A stretch of 64,000 nt of DNA from Microbacterium flavum (lineage in GTDB: Bacteria; Actinomycetota; Actinomycetes; Actinomycetales; Microbacteriaceae), in the NCBI RefSeq assembly GCF_018717645.1, contig NZ_JAFLHG010000004.1, positions 62,001 through 126,000 on the forward strand, read 5' to 3'. Under the pieces are notes generated by a model, which was not told the origin of the DNA, searched no databases, and saw only the letters and a program-made list of their open reading frames with translations. Position 1 is the stretch's first letter. Every line of letters starts with the position of its first letter. Positions 44,817-52,837 of this stretch are shown here, piece by piece. A program made the position numbers and the translations under genes.

Positions 44817-45830
44817 GTGAGCACCCCCCGTGCCGACGAGCGCCGTCGCCCCCGCCGCGCGGGCTGGATCGTCGCCGCGCTCGCCGGCGCCACCGCGATC
44901 GCCGTCGGGATCGCCGCGCTCGTCGGAGGCCTGCCCGCACTCTTCGGCGGCGCCGGCGCCCACACCCCCGCTCCGGGGACGCGCTTCGCCGTTCTCGCCG
45001 AGTCCTCCGCCGCCGAGGCATCCACCACCGACAGCGGCGCAGCGCGGGACGCCGCGACCTACCTCGCCGCCGAGCCGACCGCGTACTGGTTCACCCCCGA
45101 GCGCGACCCGATCGGGGCAGCCGGCGGGCGCCTCCGGCTCCTCGCCGGCGAGGCGCGTGCCCAGCAGGCGGTGCTCGCCCTGGTGATCTACGGCCTTCCC
45201 GGGCGCGACTGCGGCAACCACTCCGCGGGGGGCCTGTCCGCGGCCGACTACCCCGTCTGGATCGAGGAGATCGGAGCGGCTCTGCGCGCGGAATCCGACG
45301 TCCCGGCGGTGATCGTCCTCGAGCCCGACAGCCTCGCGCTCGCGGAGGAGTGCGGAAACCTGACCGAGCGGGTCGCCGAGCTCCGCCCCGCGATCGCCGC
45401 ACTCCAACGACCGGGCTCGTGGATCTACCTCGACGGCGGCCACTCGAACTGGCATCCCGCTGCGGAGCAGGCACGCCTGCTCCGTGCCGTCGGCGGAGAC
45501 GGTGTGCGCGGGTTCAGTCTCAACGTGTCGAACTTCAATGCGACGGATGCCGAGATCGCCTATGCCCACGCCGTCGCCGCCGACCTCGGCGGAGACGCCC
45601 ACGCCCTCATCGACACGTCCCGCAACGGAGCGGGCTCGAACGGCCAGTGGTGCAATCCGCCCGGCCGGCTCGTCGGCGACCTGGCCGGCGCGCTCGGCGA
45701 CGACGTCGTCGACACCAACGTGTGGATCAAGCCTCCCGGCGAAAGCGACGGCCCCTGCAACGGCGGCCCCGCCGCAGGCCGCTGGTGGCCTGCGGCGGCA
45801 GAGGAACTCACCCGTGTGGCGCGTCGGTAG
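44817..45830 (+). CDS. Membrane-anchored glycoside hydrolase family 6 (beta-1,4-glucanase type)
   Basis: A 337-residue protein. A basic N-terminus and membrane helix (~17-40) are followed by a GH6 domain: YGLPGRDCGNHSAGG (Asp131), VIVLEPDSLALAEECG (general-acid Asp171), YLDGGHSNWHP and WIKPPGESDGPCNGGPAAGRWW. GH6 enzymes cleave cellulose and related beta-1,4-glucans with inversion. There is no cellulose-binding module, and anchoring suggests work on a self-made polymer, as CslZ does beside CslA in Streptomyces. The GT2 synthase 1 kb away supports this reading, which remains inference. Confidence 0.88.
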   Translation: MSTPRADERRRPRRAGWIVAALAGATAIAVGIAALVGGLPALFGGAGAHTPAPGTRFAVLAESSAAEASTTDSGAARDAATYLAAEPTAYWFTPERDPIGAAGGRLRLLAGEARAQQAVLALVIYGLPGRDCGNHSAGGLSAADYPVWIEEIGAALRAESDVPAVIVLEPDSLALAEECGNLTERVAELRPAIAALQRPGSWIYLDGGHSNWHPAAEQARLLRAVGGDGVRGFSLNVSNFNATDAEIAYAHAVAADLGGDAHALIDTSRNGAGSNGQWCNPPGRLVGDLAGALGDDVVDTNVWIKPPGESDGPCNGGPAAGRWWPAAAEELTRVARR

Positions 45831-45860: not shown

Positions 45861-46766
45861 ATGATGCAGCGCGAGACCAACGACACGGCGGTCGTTGTCG
45901 AGGACGACCCGGATGTCCGCCACATGCTCGCCGATGTGCTGGAAGCGGCCGGGTTCTCGGTGATCTCGGTCGGAAACGGTCTCGACGGCGTCCGCGCGGT
46001 CGAGACGTATCAGCCCGTCGTCACGACACTCGACGTCAACCTCCCCGGCATCGACGGGTTCGAGGCGGCTCGCCGCATCCGCGCCCGCAGCGACACCTAC
46101 ATCGTCATGCTCACCGGTCAGACCGAGGAGACCGATGTCGTGATGGGGCTCGCCGCCGGCGCCGACGACTTCCTCTCCAAGCCGTTCCGGCCCCGCGAGC
46201 TGCGCGCCCGCATCGAGGCGATGATGAGGCGCCCGCGCACCGGTGCACCGACGCCTACGCCCCCCCGGCAGGAGGCCGTGGGCCCTTCCTTCCCCACACG
46301 CACCGTCTCCCCCGAGGTGGCTTCGGTGAACGCGCTGGCCGCCGCCGCGTCGCAGATGATGTCGGCGACCGCGACATCCGGCGATCCGGACGAACTCGTC
46401 GTGATCGACGCGCCGCTGCGCGGGTCGGCCCATCCGGAGTCGTGGCTGACGCATCGGGATCTGCAACTCGAGCCCGAGACCCGCATCGCCCGGATCGGCA
46501 CCCGCGAACTCGAGCTCACCCGCACCGAGTTCGACCTGCTCGCCGCGCTCCTCGAATCGAAGCGACGCGTGCGCAGCAAGGCGGATCTCGCCCTGGTCCT
46601 GCGGGGCGAGTCCTACGTCACGACGTACTTCGTCGGAGAGGCCGACAAGCGCGCCATCGAAGCACACATGACCAACCTGCGCCGCAAGCTCGGCGACGAC
46701 CCCACCAACCCACGGTTCATCGAAACGGTCCGCGGCGTGGGCTATCGCCTGACCTCCGAGCTCTGA
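45861..46766 (+). CDS. OmpR-family response regulator (paralogue 1)
   Basis: A 301-residue regulator. The receiver domain (~10-125) has acidic pocket VEDDPD, phosphoacceptor Asp58 in TTLDVNLPGIDGFE, and Lys in LSKPFRPRELRAR. A long ~90-residue linker follows. The winged helix (~210-300) shows LELTRTEFDLLAALLESK, HMTNLRRKLGD and FIETVRGVGYRL. It is strikingly similar to the regulator at 52031. The start is ATG 45861 (a second ATG follows); AAGGGG precedes it. It is convergent with the GT2 gene. It likely acts with the kinase at 48408, the only intact one in the window. Confidence 0.93.
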   Translation: MMQRETNDTAVVVEDDPDVRHMLADVLEAAGFSVISVGNGLDGVRAVETYQPVVTTLDVNLPGIDGFEAARRIRARSDTYIVMLTGQTEETDVVMGLAAGADDFLSKPFRPRELRARIEAMMRRPRTGAPTPTPPRQEAVGPSFPTRTVSPEVASVNALAAAASQMMSATATSGDPDELVVIDAPLRGSAHPESWLTHRDLQLEPETRIARIGTRELELTRTEFDLLAALLESKRRVRSKADLALVLRGESYVTTYFVGEADKRAIEAHMTNLRRKLGDDPTNPRFIETVRGVGYRLTSEL

Positions 46767-46847: not shown

Positions 46848-46878
46848 GGTCTGACGCTCCCCCAGCGGGCGTCAGACC
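46848..46878 (-). terminator. Second hairpin overlapping the GT2 stop
   Basis: 10-bp perfect stem ggtctgacgc / gcgtcagacc (46848-46857 / 46869-46878), directly abutting the previous hairpin and containing the GT2 stop codon. Confidence 0.65.
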
Positions 46879-48311
46879 TTGAAGCCGTGCTGGCGGCGCA
46901 CGAGCTTCAAGAACATGGACAGCGTCTGCAGGACGGTGATCACACCGACGACAGGCCACCCGATCCACAGGATCGTCGACTGCACCATGACGGGCAGCAT
47001 CCACCACATGGCCGCGATCGCGACAGCCACGGCGACGACGACGATCAGCGGCACCCAGTGGCCCTGGCCACCGCCGCGCTCGGCCTTCGCCTGCAGCGCC
47101 CAGTTGTCGACCTTCTTGCGGGAGAGGAACCGCGTCCACGACCGCAGGAAGTGGCTGATCCGCACCCACATGTAGATCTCGGCGGGGAACAGCAGCACGG
47201 CGAAGAGGACATCGCGCGCGTCGCGCTCCTTCATCGTCATCGCGATGCGCAGGTTCAGCGCCATCGCCACCACCGGGGGCAGCAGCCACCACGGCGAGAA
47301 GACGAACGCGCCGATCGACAGCGACCCGGCCAGCAGGGTCAGGAAGGCGATGCGCACGAAGAAGTTGACGAGCATCGACAGATTCTCGAGCCACCGCAGC
47401 CGCAGGTTCGGGTGGAACGGCTGTCCCTTCGTGTCGCCCCGCTGGCCGGGCCACATCAGTTCGATCGCACCGTAGGTCCACTTGACCTGCTGTGCGTCGA
47501 GACCCCGCAGCGTCGTCATGCCACCCACGTGGCCGCGAGCGAGCGGGTTGATCTTGGTGAGGTAGCCGGCGCTCTTGATCTGCAGCGACAGGAGGGAGTC
47601 CTCGACTTCGCTGTCCTTGACCCAGGGCGTGGACTGGTGGTTGTCGCGCATGACCTCGCGGAGGGCCTTCGTGGAGAAGATGGAGAGCTGCCCGCCGAGG
47701 ACGGCCATGTTGCGTCCGCGCAGGAGGTTCTGCATGTTGAAGGCCGCGAACTGGGACCGCTGGCCCGCGATGAGGAATTTGGCGACCGTGCCGCGGATGG
47801 GCTTGTCGTCGATCGTGTAGACCGCCGAGATCCCGCCGATGCGGGTGTCGGAGACCGCCTCGGACTCGAGGTACTCGACGGCGCGGGCGTCGGCGACCGT
47901 GTCGCCGTCCACACCCAGGAGGTACTCGTAGCCCTCGACGAGCGAGTACCCGTAGTTGAGCGCGCCGACCTTCTTGTCCGGGTTCTTCCCGATGTCGTGG
48001 ACGAACACCTCGGTGAACTGCGGGCCGAGGTCCGACTCCAGTTCGTGCGCCCCCGCGAAGCGGGACGCGATCTTGACGGTGGCATCCGTCGTGTTGTTCA
48101 CGACGACGTGGATGACATCGGGCACCCGCGTCTGTCCGAGGAGGCCCTCGATGACCGCGGCGATCGACTCCTCCTCGTTGTAGGCGGGGATCACGCATCC
48201 GATCGTGGAGCGCTGCGTCGACGACACGTCCAGCACGGACGCGAAGTCCTCGGGGAAGTGGTGCTCCGAGGCGAGGACGAGCTCGGCGGAAGCGTTGTGC
48301 GTGTCGGTCAT
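46872..48311 (-). CDS. Processive family 2 glycosyltransferase (cellulose/hyaluronan synthase-like)
   Basis: A 479-residue membrane synthase. The GT-A domain (~35-290) shows GCVIPAYNEEESIAAVIEGL, the D-x-D motif GVDGDT (Asp135/Asp137), the acceptor-site EDSL (~237-240) and QQVKW (274-278), a Q(Q/R)xxW-type motif of processive beta-glycan synthases. At least four membrane helices follow (~310-370, 410-470). No PilZ domain is present, so c-di-GMP is not expected to bind it directly. With GH6, kinase and regulators around it, it is the core of a putative polysaccharide system. Start ATG 48311 has a -10-like CACAGT seven bases upstream. Confidence 0.87.
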   Translation of the reverse strand: MTDTHNASAELVLASEHHFPEDFASVLDVSSTQRSTIGCVIPAYNEEESIAAVIEGLLGQTRVPDVIHVVVNNTTDATVKIASRFAGAHELESDLGPQFTEVFVHDIGKNPDKKVGALNYGYSLVEGYEYLLGVDGDTVADARAVEYLESEAVSDTRIGGISAVYTIDDKPIRGTVAKFLIAGQRSQFAAFNMQNLLRGRNMAVLGGQLSIFSTKALREVMRDNHQSTPWVKDSEVEDSLLSLQIKSAGYLTKINPLARGHVGGMTTLRGLDAQQVKWTYGAIELMWPGQRGDTKGQPFHPNLRLRWLENLSMLVNFFVRIAFLTLLAGSLSIGAFVFSPWWLLPPVVAMALNLRIAMTMKERDARDVLFAVLLFPAEIYMWVRISHFLRSWTRFLSRKKVDNWALQAKAERGGGQGHWVPLIVVVAVAVAIAAMWWMLPVMVQSTILWIGWPVVGVITVLQTLSMFLKLVRRQHGFKV

Positions 48312-48333
48312 GGATGCAACTGTGCCCGCCCGT

Positions 48334-48384
48334 CCGCAAGGAACCCTCCGGTGCGACGCGAGCGAACCGCAAGGTTTCCGCAAG
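48334..48384. promoter_or_regulatory. Phased CCGCAAG direct repeats between the GT2 and kinase genes
   Basis: CCGCAAG occurs at 48334, 48367 and 48378, that is with 33- and 11-base steps, all on one face of the helix. The last two copies cover the -35 region of the kinase promoter and all lie just upstream of the GT2 start. Spaced direct repeats like this are typical OmpR-family binding sites; the binding protein is inferred. Confidence 0.5.
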
Positions 48385-48395
48385 ATCTCCCCCGG

Positions 48396-48401
48396 TAGGC
48401 T
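48396..48401 (+). promoter_or_regulatory. -10 box TAGGCT, leaderless start of the kinase gene
   Basis: TAGGCT six bases before ATG 48408. Confidence 0.55.
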
Positions 48402-48407
48402 CAGATC

Positions 48408-50045
48408 ATGGCCATGACGGACACGATTCCCACGAGTCGCGTCACTCCGAGGCCGAGCGCGCGGACGCGCTCGGTGTGGCTGTGGCAGCTCTCCCTCGGG
48501 GCGGTCGTGATCGTCCTCACCCTCGCGATCGTGCTCCTCTCGCCCGCGATGCTCGTGCGCACGACGATGGCCGCCGGCATCGCCCTCGTCCTGACGCTGA
48601 CGATCGCGACCCTGATCCTCCCGTGGGAACGCGCCTCCCGCCCTGCCATCTCCCTCATCCCGCTGGCCGACATCGTCGCCATCGGCCTCCTCGCCTACGG
48701 CGGCGAGCTGTTCTTCGGATTCCTGTGGGTGTTCCCGCTCGCCTGGATCGCGACGCACTACAGCCCTCTCTGGGTGGTCGGGTCCCTCGGCCTGGTCGCC
48801 GCGATGATCCTCGCGGATGCACTCACCCAGCCTCCGAGCGCCTTCTCATCGCTGCGCTTCCTCGTCGTCCTTCTGTCGATGACGTTCCTCGCCATCACCA
48901 TCACCGCTTCCGCCGGACGGACCCGCGCGTTCACCCGCCTCGTCCGGCGTCAGAGCGCACGCCTCGAGTCGACCCTCGAGCGCGTGCGGTCCCAGGAACG
49001 GCGCGTCATCCAGATGCTCAACGGTCTCGACGCGGCCATCGCCCGGGTCGATCGGGAGGGGCGGCTGCTCGGTGTCAACGACGCCTATGTCGCGCTGTAC
49101 GGCATCGACCCCCGCGATGCCTCCCGCCCCCCGACGTCGGTCGAGTACGACGAACGCGGCGGCACTGCGCTCGCGGCGACGGAGCGCCCAGCCGCTCGCG
49201 CGGCGCGAGGCGAGATCTTCTCCGGTGAGCGGCTGTGGCTCTTCGACGCCGACGGTCGCTGGCACATCGTCTCGGCATCCACCCGCTCCCTCGTGAGCGG
49301 ACCCGCCGAGCCCGAGACGACCCTGCTCGTGATCAGCGATGTCACCGAGGCCGTCGAGGCGGAGAACGCGCGCCGCACCCTTGCGACGACCGTCACGCAC
49401 GAACTCGCGAACCCGTTGACGGCGATCGTCGGGTACACGGACCTGCTGCTGGAGAGCGACCTGCCTCCTGCTGCGCACGAACGGCTCGAGCTCATCGAGG
49501 CGGCCGGCTCCCGGATGGAGCGGCTGATCGCGGAGGTCCTGCGCGCAGGAGGGCGCTCTGCGGCGAGCGACCCGCGGCGCCGGGTCGACGCACGCACGCT
49601 TCTGGAGGCGACGGTGGAATCCTTCCTGCCCGCCGCGAGCGCCGGAGATGTCCTCCTCACGCTCCTGCCGGGACCCCCCGTGCCGATCACGGCGGATGCC
49701 TTCCGACTGCGCCAAGTGCTCGACAACGTCGTGAGCAACGCGGTGAAGTACACCCCGCGCGCGGGCTCGGTGACCGTCACCGCCGACCGCGACGGGACGG
49801 ACGCGGTGATCACGGTCACCGACACCGGCATCGGGATCAGCGCGAGAGATCTCCCCCTCGTCTTCGAGGACTACTTCCGTGCCGAGACGGCGCGGGATTC
49901 GGGCATTCCCGGAACCGGCCTCGGCATGGGCATCTCGCGCGCGATCGTCGAAGAGCACGCCGGATCCCTGACGATCCGCAGCAGACCTGGTGCGGGGACG
50001 ACGATCAGCCTCCGCCTGCCCCTGTCAGCCTCCGAGGAGGTCTAG
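48408..50045 (+). CDS. Multi-pass membrane sensor histidine kinase with PAS domain
   Basis: A 545-residue kinase. Five or six membrane helices (~22-170) lead to a coiled linker (RQSARLESTLERVRSQERRV), a PAS domain (~200-310, LNGLDAAIARVDREGRLLGV), HisKA with His331 in TVTHELANPLTAIVGYTDLL, and HATPase (LDNVVSNAVKYTPRAGSV, DTGIGISARDLPLVFEDYF, GTGLGMGIS). Cognate regulators are probably the OmpR paralogues at 45861 and 52031. The next gene starts one base after its stop, so the two are cotranscribed. The signal sensed is unknown. Confidence 0.92.
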   Translation: MAMTDTIPTSRVTPRPSARTRSVWLWQLSLGAVVIVLTLAIVLLSPAMLVRTTMAAGIALVLTLTIATLILPWERASRPAISLIPLADIVAIGLLAYGGELFFGFLWVFPLAWIATHYSPLWVVGSLGLVAAMILADALTQPPSAFSSLRFLVVLLSMTFLAITITASAGRTRAFTRLVRRQSARLESTLERVRSQERRVIQMLNGLDAAIARVDREGRLLGVNDAYVALYGIDPRDASRPPTSVEYDERGGTALAATERPAARAARGEIFSGERLWLFDADGRWHIVSASTRSLVSGPAEPETTLLVISDVTEAVEAENARRTLATTVTHELANPLTAIVGYTDLLLESDLPPAAHERLELIEAAGSRMERLIAEVLRAGGRSAASDPRRRVDARTLLEATVESFLPAASAGDVLLTLLPGPPVPITADAFRLRQVLDNVVSNAVKYTPRAGSVTVTADRDGTDAVITVTDTGIGISARDLPLVFEDYFRAETARDSGIPGTGLGMGISRAIVEEHAGSLTIRSRPGAGTTISLRLPLSASEEV

Positions 50046-50046
50046 C

Positions 50047-51138
50047 GTGCCGGTGCTCGGAAGCGCACAGGTGCTCGTCGCGACGATCGCCACGTTCTGC
50101 ATGATCGGGCTCGGGTTCCTCTACCGGCCGAGTCGCGCCAGCGCGATCTGGTCGATCGCCTTCGTCGTCGTGCTCATCGGCTCGTCCGCGGAGAGCGTCG
50201 CCGTCGCTCGCGGCATCGATCTCCTGCGCGCAGGATCCACGGGAGTGCTCCTGTCGACGACGGCGTTCGTCTGGTCGGGTCTGCGGGCGTACCGCGGCGC
50301 CCCGAGCCTCGTCGCCATCCCCTCGGCCACGGCCATCGCCGGCGCGGTCATCCTGCCCTTGACCCTCGGCGGCCCGGCGTACCCCTGGACCTTCCGCGTG
50401 TTGTTCGGACTCATGGGCCTGTACGCCGCCCTCACCGTGGTCGAGACCTTCCGCGGCGGCGGTGCGACGCACGCGAACGGCGCCTCCGTGCCCCTCGCGG
50501 CCTTCTCCGTGATCGTCAGCGGGGTGACCGTCGTCAGTCTCGCGATCGGGTTCTCGGCGCTCCCCGAGTCGGACGGCCCCGCCGATCTGCTCAGCACGCT
50601 CAACGCACTCGGCCTGCTCGCCTATACGGTCTGCGCGCTCGTCACCCTCCTCTTCCTTACGCGCGGCGACAGCCTGCCCTCCCTCCGGACGGCCTTTCAC
50701 GCGGTCGCATCCGATCGCCTCCTGCGCGCTCAGGCCTCCGGCGAGCGATCCTGGTCCCTCATCGTCATCCGGCTCGACGACGCGGACGACCTCCGCACCG
50801 TCGCCGGCGACGCCGGATTCGCGGCGATCGCCGACCGTCTTCACGCCGACATCGTCGAGATCTTCCCCACCGAGGCCGATATCGGGCGTCTCGACGCCGC
50901 GTGCTTCGCCGTGCTCGTGGCACAGCCCGCCACGGTCGTCAGGGAGCGCGTGCGCACGCTGCTCCGCGCCGTCGCCACCCCGGTCCTGGCGGCGCAGACG
51001 AGCGCGTCCGCGTCCATCGGGTGGGCGACGGTCGCGGAGAACGGCTACGAGTTCGATGCGATGCTCGCCGCAGCCCGCACCGCGGCCGACAGAGCCGCCG
51101 CGGCAGGCGGAGACCGGTGGGAGCGCGCGCTGTCGTGA
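50047..51138 (+). CDS. Membrane protein with degenerate GGDEF domain
   Basis: A 363-residue protein with six or seven membrane helices (~8-205) followed by a ~150-residue domain with a diguanylate-cyclase-like pattern. A strand WSLIVIRLDDADDLRTVAGD leads to IGRLDAACFAVLVA at residues 279-292, and then ASASIGWATVAENG and a final helix. At the GGDEF position the sequence reads D-A-A-C-F (283-287), so the catalytic signature is gone. It may be a c-di-GMP or GTP sensor or a structural partner of the kinase. GTG 50047 has GAGGAGG six bases upstream and is one base from the kinase stop. Confidence 0.75.
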   Translation: MPVLGSAQVLVATIATFCMIGLGFLYRPSRASAIWSIAFVVVLIGSSAESVAVARGIDLLRAGSTGVLLSTTAFVWSGLRAYRGAPSLVAIPSATAIAGAVILPLTLGGPAYPWTFRVLFGLMGLYAALTVVETFRGGGATHANGASVPLAAFSVIVSGVTVVSLAIGFSALPESDGPADLLSTLNALGLLAYTVCALVTLLFLTRGDSLPSLRTAFHAVASDRLLRAQASGERSWSLIVIRLDDADDLRTVAGDAGFAAIADRLHADIVEIFPTEADIGRLDAACFAVLVAQPATVVRERVRTLLRAVATPVLAAQTSASASIGWATVAENGYEFDAMLAAARTAADRAAAAGGDRWERALS

Positions 51139-51177: not shown

Positions 51178-51813
51178 TCACCGCGCGATGGCGACGACGA
51201 CCGTGTCGGTGGCGGTCTGCTTGGCGTATTCGGAGGATGTGGGCGTCGCCTGCACGAGGAAGTCGTAGGTGAACTCGAGCGTGACGAACGTCGCCTCCGC
51301 CGGTACTGCGCCGACGGTGAACTGCTGCGAATAGCTGTACGGATCGAGGACGAGGTATCCCGGCGCGGTCGTCGCCTGGTCGACCTGCGGTGCGAGAGGG
51401 TCGAGTGACCCGGCGGAGGTGCCGGGGACGGCTGTCATGGTCGCCCGCTGCAGGTACACCTTCTGCCCGTCGGAGGGGCTCACCGTGGTCACGAGCGAGA
51501 GCTTGACGGGCTTCAGCGCCGAGGCCGTCCACTTGTCCATCGACAGATCGGACCAGTAGTTCACCGTCGCCGCCACTGCTCCGGCGGTCAGCGAGCGCTG
51601 GGTCGATCCGGTGGACAGATCGTTCGGCACCGGCGTGGGCACGATCGACGTGGACGAGGACGGCGTGGGGCCGTCCGTCGCCCCGCCCCCGCCCGCCCAC
51701 GGGGGTGTCCCGCAGGCCGTGAGCGCGAATGCCACGCCGATCGTCGCCACGGTGGCGGAAAGCCGCGTCCCTGCCCGCAACCCCGCTCGGCGGGTCGGCG
51801 TCGGTGTGCTCAT
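51178..51813 (-). CDS. Lipoprotein of unknown function
   Basis: A 211-residue precursor with a Thr/Arg-rich n-region, hydrophobic stretch and lipobox LTAC (Cys ~34), then a Gly/Ser/Thr/Pro-rich linker and a beta-rich domain of ~150 residues (AAVTVNYWSDLSMD-type start, ending TATDTVVVAIAR). No family recognised. It lies among the signalling genes and could be an extracytoplasmic part of the system. Start ATG 51813 is preceded by AAGGGG; an upstream in-frame ATG at 51861 would add 16 residues encoded by 12-bp repeats and no signal-peptide benefit. Confidence 0.72.
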   Translation of the reverse strand: MSTPTPTRRAGLRAGTRLSATVATIGVAFALTACGTPPWAGGGGATDGPTPSSSTSIVPTPVPNDLSTGSTQRSLTAGAVAATVNYWSDLSMDKWTASALKPVKLSLVTTVSPSDGQKVYLQRATMTAVPGTSAGSLDPLAPQVDQATTAPGYLVLDPYSYSQQFTVGAVPAEATFVTLEFTYDFLVQATPTSSEYAKQTATDTVVVAIAR

Positions 51814-51824
51814 GGGTGCCCCTT

Positions 51825-51872
51825 CGGCTCGGCAGGCGGCTCGTCGTGCGGCTCGGCGCATGGCTCGACCGA
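51825..51872. repeat. Four tandem 12-bp repeats upstream of the lipoprotein and regulator genes
   Basis: The word (c/t)GGCTCG recurs at 51825, 51837, 51849 and 51861, exactly 12 bases apart. It sits 12 bases upstream of the lipoprotein start on the minus strand. It could be an operator array or a replication-slippage repeat. Confidence 0.6.
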
Positions 51873-52030
51873 GCGCGGTCGGCTCCGCGTCAGTCTAGGG
51901 CGCGCACGACGAGCTTGTGACGATGTGGAGTGCACCTTGAGCCGACGCTGTGCCGATCGCACCCGAGCGCATCAGTCGATCTGGCACAATCAGACCATCC
52001 CCTGCCCATGTCGCCGATGAGGAGTCGCCG

Positions 52031-52837
52031 ATGAGTGAGACCAGCGACGGTCCCACCGCGGTCGTCATCGACGACGACCCGGATGTCCGCGACCTCCTGG
52101 TCCAGGTGCTCTCCAGCGCGGGGTTCGTCGTCATCGCTGCGGAGAACGGCTACGAGGGCGTCGAGGCCGTGCGCGCGCACGACCCGGCTCTGACGACGCT
52201 CGACGTCAACATGCCCGGGATCGACGGGTTCGAGACGGCGCGCCGCATCCGTGAGTACAGCAACACCTACATCATGCTCATCACGGCCCTCACGGACGAG
52301 GCCGATGCCGTTCTCGGTTTCAGCGTCGGTGCCGATGACGTCGTCACGAAGCCCTTCCGTGCCCGGGAGCTGCGCGCACGAGTGCTCGCCGCACAGCGTC
52401 GGCGCCCGCAGGGCGATGACGGCGGGCCATCCGACGAGGCCGAGTCCGTCGGGGCCGCCCCCGCCGGCGACAGCCGGCCCGCGCCCGCCGGAGAGCCGGG
52501 ACGACATCCCGTGACCGTGCTCCGCGGCGCCGCCGGCCTCCTCGTGAACCGAGCGACCCATTCCGTCACGATCGACGACACCGTCGTGGCCCTCACCCGC
52601 ACCGAGTTCGAGCTGCTCGCGATCCTCCTCCAGGCTGCCCCGGAGGTGCGCAGCAAGGTCGAGCTCGTGGCGCTTCTCCGGCCCCCCGCGGCCACATCGG
52701 CGCACATCGCCGATTCCGACGAGAGGACGGTCGAGACGCACATGACGAATCTCCGCCGCAAGCTCGGCGACAGCGCGGCGGAACCCCGCTTCATCGAGAC
52801 CGTTCGCGCCGTCGGCTACCGAGCACTCCTGCCCTGA
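52031..52837 (+). CDS. OmpR-family response regulator (paralogue 2)
   Basis: A 268-residue regulator with the same layout as the one at 45861: receiver (VIDDDPDVRDLL, phosphoacceptor Asp58 in TTLDVNMPGIDGFETARRIR, Lys in VTKPFRARELRAR), a ~50-residue Pro/Ala/Gly linker, and winged helix (VALTRTEFELLAILLQ, THMTNLRRKLGD, FIETVRAVGYRALLP). Asp58 falls at the identical residue number in both. ATG 52031 has GAGGAG six bases upstream. A single intact kinase with two such regulators suggests branching or competition. Confidence 0.92.
   Translation: MSETSDGPTAVVIDDDPDVRDLLVQVLSSAGFVVIAAENGYEGVEAVRAHDPALTTLDVNMPGIDGFETARRIREYSNTYIMLITALTDEADAVLGFSVGADDVVTKPFRARELRARVLAAQRRRPQGDDGGPSDEAESVGAAPAGDSRPAPAGEPGRHPVTVLRGAAGLLVNRATHSVTIDDTVVALTRTEFELLAILLQAAPEVRSKVELVALLRPPAATSAHIADSDERTVETHMTNLRRKLGDSAAEPRFIETVRAVGYRALLP

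Follow-up and report, generated by a model that had tools for sequence, protein, structure and literature searches.

Conserved CTTGCGG direct repeats form a predicted OmpR/PhoB-type operator upstream of a glycosyltransferase gene in Microbacterium flavum

Three copies of the heptamer CCGCAAG lie between a glycosyltransferase family 2 gene (GT2) and a divergent histidine kinase gene in Microbacterium flavum. What are these repeats for, which of the two genes do they serve, and which protein would bind them? The original prediction described them as an operator, lying on one face of the DNA, through which a local regulator controls both genes, with a spacing like that of OmpR-family half-sites. 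All coordinates given here refer to the window, i.e. the whole stretch of 64,000 nucleotides that was analysed (contig NZ_JAFLHG010000004.1, positions 62,001 to 126,000).

The repeat array and its 11-bp register

The three copies of CCGCAAG are exact on the plus strand at 48334-48340, 48367-48373, and 48378-48384, with steps of 33 and 11 bp as originally described, and are located in the 96-bp gap between the ATG of GT2 (48311, minus strand) and the ATG of the kinase gene (48408). Between the start of the first copy and the GT2 ATG the distance is 23 positions, and the last copy ends 11 bases short of the -10-like TAGGCT of the kinase gene; both distances agree with the earlier description. 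Read on the GT2 strand, the order is CTTGCGG-N4-CTTGCGG-N26-CTTGCGG-N9-CACAGT-N7-ATG, and the features of the gap are as follows.

48378-48384, minus strand: half-site 1, CTTGCGG, offset 0 on the GT2 strand
48367-48373, minus strand: half-site 2, CTTGCGG, offset +11, forming a tandem pair with half-site 1
48356-48362, minus strand: weak in-register half-site, CTCGCGT, offset +22, suggestive only
48345-48351, minus strand: weak in-register half-site, CCGGAGG, offset +33, suggestive only
48334-48340, minus strand: half-site 3, CTTGCGG, offset +44, 33 bp from half-site 2 and 9 bp before the GT2 -10
48319-48324, minus strand: predicted GT2 -10, CACAGT, 9 bp after half-site 3
48396-48401, plus strand: predicted kinase -10, TAGGCT, its distance to the array not conserved

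The heptamer alone is not rare, since 19 copies were observed on the two strands of the window against 8.85 expected. The window contains a single exact copy of the tandem CTTGCGG-N4-CTTGCGG; the same pair with up to three mismatches is at chance level, as 12 matches were found against 12.8 expected. Throughout the genome, CTTGNGG-N4-CTTGNGG has one perfect match, which is the site upstream of GT2, and four matches with one mismatch, compared with 44 one-mismatch pairs for the reversed-pattern control. With the control far higher, these four pairs were taken as chance and not as further operators, and tblastn gave no match to the locus proteins in the 2-3 kb around them.

To assess conservation, the best 80 of 200 candidate stretches encoding GT2 relatives were kept from a species collection, mostly from Microbacterium, with Agromyces, Sanguibacter, Agreia, and Leifsonia. 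In 46 of the 80 loci, the 330 bp preceding the GT2 match contain a tandem pair with at most one mismatch. The GT2 upstream regions hold 54 such pair sites versus 26 in the remainder of the 1.01 Mb, and 21 of these 26 fall on the other strand, in the interval flanked by two lipoprotein-like genes that belong to the locus; three lie just past 330 bp and two elsewhere.

After removal of near-identical sequences, 45 GT2 upstream regions, including that of the window, were used to count the spacing between half-sites. Pairs were found at 11 bp in 29 upstreams, at 22 bp in 9, at 33 bp in 17, at 44 bp in 17, and at 55 bp in 4; distances one base over a multiple of 11 were seen in 1-4 upstreams, and all others from 7 to 60 bp in at most two. 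The shuffle expectation was 0.03-0.25 per distance, and in the backward-read and opposite-strand controls no distance from 7 to 60 was reached by at least four of the 45 upstreams. The full three-site layout (an 11-bp pair with a third site 33-34 bp on, at most four mismatches in 21) is present in 53 of 81 GT2 upstreams, 48 with a 33-bp and five with a 34-bp step, 12 of them carrying three or four mismatches, and it was seen once in 1600 mononucleotide shuffles. It reaches Agromyces, Sanguibacter, Agreia, and Leifsonia, and is absent from the remaining 28 upstreams. Since related genomes are not independent, the shuffle expectations overstate the significance, and register and spacing are better regarded as strong evidence of constraint than as a strict probability. 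Loss of the repeats from otherwise conserved loci had been named as the result that would count against an operator, and the comparison of relatives turned out in its favour. The 7-bp direct repeats, 4-bp spacers, and 11-bp periodicity across relatives likewise bear out the proposed likeness to OmpR/PhoB-family half-sites. The array therefore appears to be a real and conserved predicted operator of a known kind.

Could the repeats be a product of chance or a feature of RNA? CCGCAAG occurs in the window at twice its expected frequency, and AACC-GCAA-GGTT could form a small hairpin. However, the conserved 11-bp register, the three-site layout, and a fixed 9-bp gap to the -10 (see below) make chance very unlikely, and it was rejected on these grounds. 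An RNA element was also rejected, as there is no Rfam match and, on either side, the transcripts are predicted to begin only past the repeats. Taken together, these explanations appear extremely improbable.

Promoter geometry and the gene served by the array

In all but one (L049) of the 53 loci with the three-site layout, a -10-like hexamer (nAnnnT) is positioned exactly 9 bp past the third site, and 44 of the 53 have C as the first base of the hexamer. Gaps of 4-8, 10, 12-15, and 17 bp gave no such hexamer, a gap of 11 bp gave two, and a gap of 16 bp gave one. No sigma-70 -35/-10 pair was found in 48200-48500, and over the -35 region there is only a weak half-site at +33, a possible partner of half-site 3. 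A fixed 9-bp distance from site to -10, combined with the lack of a good -35, corresponds to class II activation of the PhoB type. GT2 transcription would be predicted to start at or beside the ATG, i.e. to give a leaderless transcript.

Weaker half-sites were sought in the same register among 24 non-redundant loci, in which the mean mismatch is 3.29 at offset -11, 3.54 at +22, and 3.46 at +33, versus 4.82 overall. The off-register offset +64, which falls in the -10 region, has a mean mismatch of 3.75, and most register positions further out are without signal. That the half-sites at -11, +22, and +33 are part of the array is suggestive only.

It is also conceivable, yet unlikely, that the array represses GT2, the proximal site blocking the polymerase. 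The proximal half-site does lie between the expected -35 and the -10. On the other hand, the GT2 promoter has no -35-like hexamer, the fixed 9-bp spacing suggests contact with the polymerase, and PhoB sites that overlap the -35 have been modelled together with polymerase in the consulted part of PMC3348028. Activation is thus the preferred reading of the GT2 promoter.

Which of the divergent genes the array belongs to can be judged from loci with other neighbours. Where a recognised neighbour is divergent, every locus carries the array: 12 of 12 for the kinase, 23 of 23 for a membrane protein, and 5 of 5 for a lipoprotein gene. In the remaining classes it is present in 7 of 30 loci where LIP2 runs into GT2, in 2 of 4 where the lipoprotein-like gene LIP is co-directional, and in 3 of 6 with no recognised neighbour, which gives 52 of 80 loci by neighbour class. 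LIP2 (L020:3919-4728) is a lipoprotein-like protein without a family match and is conserved in the GT2 locus. A reverse-oriented pair spaced by 11 or 22 bp precedes LIP2 in 18 of the 30 LIP2-GT2 loci, and 15 of these 18 are without a GT2 array; an array at either GT2 or LIP2 is thus found in 67 of 80 loci and at neither in 13. A pair spaced by 9 bp occurs in 8 of the 30, instead of or besides the 11/22-bp pair, and is a misfit to the simple model. At these eight LIP2 promoters (e.g. L078, L083, and L084) the repeats are CCTCAAG, 9 bp and not 11 bp apart.

The distance to the kinase promoter was measured in 13 kinase-divergent loci, the window included, as the gap separating the first strong half-site and the closest TAnnnT. 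It is 11 bp in the window and 63, 18, 64, 31, 63, 65, 66, 41, 63, 65, and 20 bp in eleven others, TAnnnT being found in 12 of the 13; some of these loci carry one extra half-site 11 bp closer to the kinase gene. Since the distance to the GT2 -10 is fixed, the distance to the kinase -10 varies, and the array is kept with other neighbours, the array belongs to the GT2 unit. The prediction that both divergent genes are controlled is therefore only half supported, for GT2; for the kinase gene, joint class II control was rejected because the distance of 11-66 bp is not conserved and the array is kept where no kinase gene is the neighbour. The kinase gene may nevertheless be affected in M. flavum, where its -10 is close.

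Candidate regulators and a proposed mechanism

The genes of the locus that are relevant to the choice of a regulator are the following.

44817-45830, plus strand: GH6 glycoside hydrolase, upstream of RR1 (PF01341, E 7.3e-54)
45861-46766, plus strand: RR1, OmpR/PhoB-type response regulator (PF00072, E 3.8e-27; PF00486, E 2.3e-19)
46872-48311, minus strand: GT2, membrane glycosyltransferase family 2 (Pfam PF00535 and PF13632), the predicted main operator target
48408-50045, plus strand: histidine kinase, divergent from GT2 (HisKA, HATPase_c)
49990-51138, plus strand: membrane protein with a degenerate GGDEF-like C-terminus, a resemblance read from the sequence, the signature being lost
51178-51861, minus strand: LIP, lipoprotein-like, conserved in many loci
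51950-52837, plus strand: RR2, second OmpR/PhoB-type response regulator (Pfam; receiver and Trans_reg_C)

Neither the membrane protein at 49990-51138 nor LIP has a match in Pfam or NCBIfam; the GGDEF-like protein adjoins the kinase in many loci. In 79 of 80 loci, no more than 3.5 kb separates RR1 from GT2; the exception is L073, a contig of 6.3 kb. When 58 whole genomes were searched, GT2 (E at most 1e-60) was found in 15 and RR1 adjoins it in all 15, whereas a separate RR2 ortholog, judged by position, is present in three of the 15. Three genomes without GT2 at this cut-off have a full-length RR1 ortholog, and in two of them (G017 and G019) a diverged GT2 lies beside it. In G006 (L113:8330-8440), a GT2-type array and its -10 are kept before a divergent gene beside RR1, no GT2 being found there. 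RR1 itself falls outside named NCBIfam equivalogs such as MtrA and PhoB, its best score being 169.3 bits for MtrA against a cut-off of 300, and it reaches no cut-off among the 25 listed of 90 NCBIfam families. Its helix, DKRA[IV]EAHMTN, is found in 82 of 117 domains collected by pattern, a count that pools all regulator classes and includes some duplicate loci.

The recognition helices of RR1 (EAHMTN) and RR2 (ETHMTN) are similar, and therefore RR2 could bind the repeats as well. It is located in the same locus of the window, has the same domains, and adjoins the kinase in some relatives (L117, L118, and L122). Yet the array and RR1 persist where RR2 is missing, and RR2 was rejected as sole regulator on account of its poor co-occurrence; in front of RR2 in the window, no tandem pair within one mismatch was found. 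Regulation of the array by RR2, or by RR1 and RR2 together, is accordingly quite unlikely. The original prediction of a local regulator thus seems likely to be right, RR1 being the better fit of the two.

A distant or global regulator is a further alternative, with the proximity of RR1 being incidental. It could be another OmpR-family protein or come from a different family whose members bind head-to-tail, BldC and LytTR being examples. The M. flavum genome does contain many other regulators, 67 RR1-like candidates of which 40 were scored. A perfect tandem site that occurs once in the genome is, however, what would be expected for a dedicated regulator, and arrays of a variant kind adjoin a paralogous regulator; a remote regulator is therefore very unlikely.

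We consider it likely, from the sequence comparisons, that the repeats serve as an array of operator sites from which an OmpR/PhoB-type response regulator, most probably RR1, would activate GT2. In the proposed mechanism, phosphorylated RR1 would bind head-to-tail with one monomer on each CTTG[C/A]GG, and the 11-bp repeats would set the monomers on about one face of the DNA. One dimer would occupy the strong pair (48367-48384), upstream of the -35 region, and a second molecule or dimer would occupy the proximal site (48334-48340) with its weak partner (48345-48351) over the -35 region. The proximal site would then stand 9 bp before a -10 that has no recognisable -35, and RR1 would bring in RNA polymerase by class II activation, transcription of GT2 then beginning at or near its ATG. 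The use of the pair and the proximal site by RR1 and the recruitment of polymerase are proposed by analogy with PhoP and PhoB. The divergent histidine kinase is a possible partner of RR1 and/or RR2 and may be the source of the phosphoryl group.

In Mycobacterium, PhoP binds as a head-to-tail dimer to 7-bp direct repeats with a strict 4-bp spacer, and direct repeats are said to hold for all known OmpR/PhoB-family sites, according to the consulted part of PMC4832192. The GT2 array resembles this PhoP operator in its 7-bp direct repeats and 4-bp spacer. When the helices were aligned by eye, with Glu215, Arg222, and Arg223 as anchors, the PhoP contacts Asn212, Val213, Glu215, Ser216, Tyr217, and Tyr220 corresponded to R, A, E, A, H, and N of RR1. 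Unlike the PhoP operator as described there, the array has a third strong site three turns away beside the -10, and its CTTG[C/A]GG differs from the PhoP motif TCACAGC. In the pho box of E. coli PhoB, direct repeats overlap the -35 region (PMC3348028, as far as consulted); compared with that box, the GT2 array differs in sequence and carries an additional pair further upstream, at a step of 33 bp.

GlnR is another OmpR-family regulator. At the Streptomyces amtB promoter it has several boxes, one half-site being atypical and dispensable (PMC5826061), and the GT2 promoter is similar in having several boxes for one, here predicted, regulator. GlnR is described there as global and has a nitrogen regulon, whereas the GT2 array is unique in its genome.

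The product of GT2 can only be guessed to be a surface glycan, from its family and neighbours. GT2 matches PgaC/IcaA weakly (53 bits, the cut-off being 422), and its predicted structure, with a mean pLDDT of 53.5, is too poor for use. In the Streptomyces cslA-glxA-cslZ cluster, a glycan synthase gene is neighboured by a GH6 hydrolase gene (PMC9040799 and PMC11022532, as far as consulted), and at the level of gene neighbourhood the GT2-GH6 arrangement resembles the cslA/cslZ pairing. Unlike that cluster as described there, the GT2 locus has a kinase, response regulators, and a GGDEF-like protein attached. One locus filed under Stenotrophomonas maltophilia P13 (L017) is of the Microbacterium type, with a GT2 87% identical to that of the window, and is probably a contaminant contig.

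A paralogous regulator and its half-sites

A third regulator of the RR1/RR2 family, RR3, is found by coaE in eight loci. In seven of the eight, three half-sites of the form [CAG][TC]TG[ACT]G[GCA] follow each other at 11 bp, and the last is followed by 9 bp and TAnnnT; no such triple was found in the L130 RR3 locus, and triples at 8, 9, 10, 12, 13, or 14 bp numbered zero in the RR3 loci. Among the 58 genomes, two half-sites with 9 bp and TAnnnT gave six matches, five at RR3 loci and the sixth (G057) 2.5 kb from another regulator of the family, and the reversed control gave none. As the pattern was written after the RR3 loci had been viewed, this measures specificity and is not a blind discovery. 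The pairing of regulator and array is not universal, since several other family regulators (L128, L129, L131, L133, L135, L140-L142, and L122) were found to have no nearby pair within one mismatch, L133 being a regulator beside a kinase and a GGDEF-like gene.

A small secreted protein and signal peptidase I are encoded between RR3 and coaE in four of the eight loci (L127, L130, L132, and L134), and 11-bp arrays are present in all of these but L130. The names TasA and SipW do not fully fit such proteins: the small secreted protein of L106 has no family match, and its signal peptidase I passes TIGR02228 with a score below the SipW cut-off.

The helix of RR3 is EVH[VM]AN in all eight loci, and its half-sites differ from those of RR1. 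Position 5 is C in 46 of 60 RR1 sites versus 1 of 21 RR3 sites (18 of 20 RR1 loci versus 1 of 7 RR3 loci), and position 2 is C in 1 of 60 versus 13 of 21. The comparison covers Microbacterium-type loci with a 33-bp step only; L073, whose contig holds no RR1, was taken as RR1 by genus, and L132, which goes against the trend with C at position 5, is included in the count. Beyond Microbacterium, the helices of RR1 orthologs read EVHx[AG]N, as do those of two other related loci, and the half-sites there, with those of L152 and L155, are mixed at position 5 (A 10, C 4, T 4). The match between helix and base is therefore not clean. In L155 (7762-9130), from another family, a related regulator lies by a Hpt-like gene and, by our own reading, apparent Tad-pilus genes, with an 11-bp CTTGTGG/CCTGCGG array between.

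A broader reading, tentative and somewhat less than evenly balanced, is that paralogous regulators of Microbacteriaceae each serve their own cell-surface locus, i.e. the GT2/GH6 glycan genes or the small secreted protein with signal peptidase, a kinase and a membrane protein with a degenerate GGDEF-like part often being close by. They would share one promoter grammar, in which half-sites recur in 11-bp arrays and exactly 9 bp separate the final one from a -10 without a -35. Specificity would have diverged in the helix, by A to V at the PhoP-216 position and T to A at 219, matched by CTTGCGG versus CCTGAGG in the half-site.

The kind of operator is known; its sequence, regulon, and paralogous pairing appear to be new as far as the searches reach, the openly licensed PMC literature having yielded nothing relevant on the motif or on any Microbacterium regulator with a comparable locus under its control. 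Overall, the analysis offers a precise predicted regulatory site and a candidate regulator for a conserved glycosyltransferase locus. The paralogous regulator-operator pairs may provide a natural set in which the divergence of OmpR-family specificity can be followed while the promoter geometry is kept.
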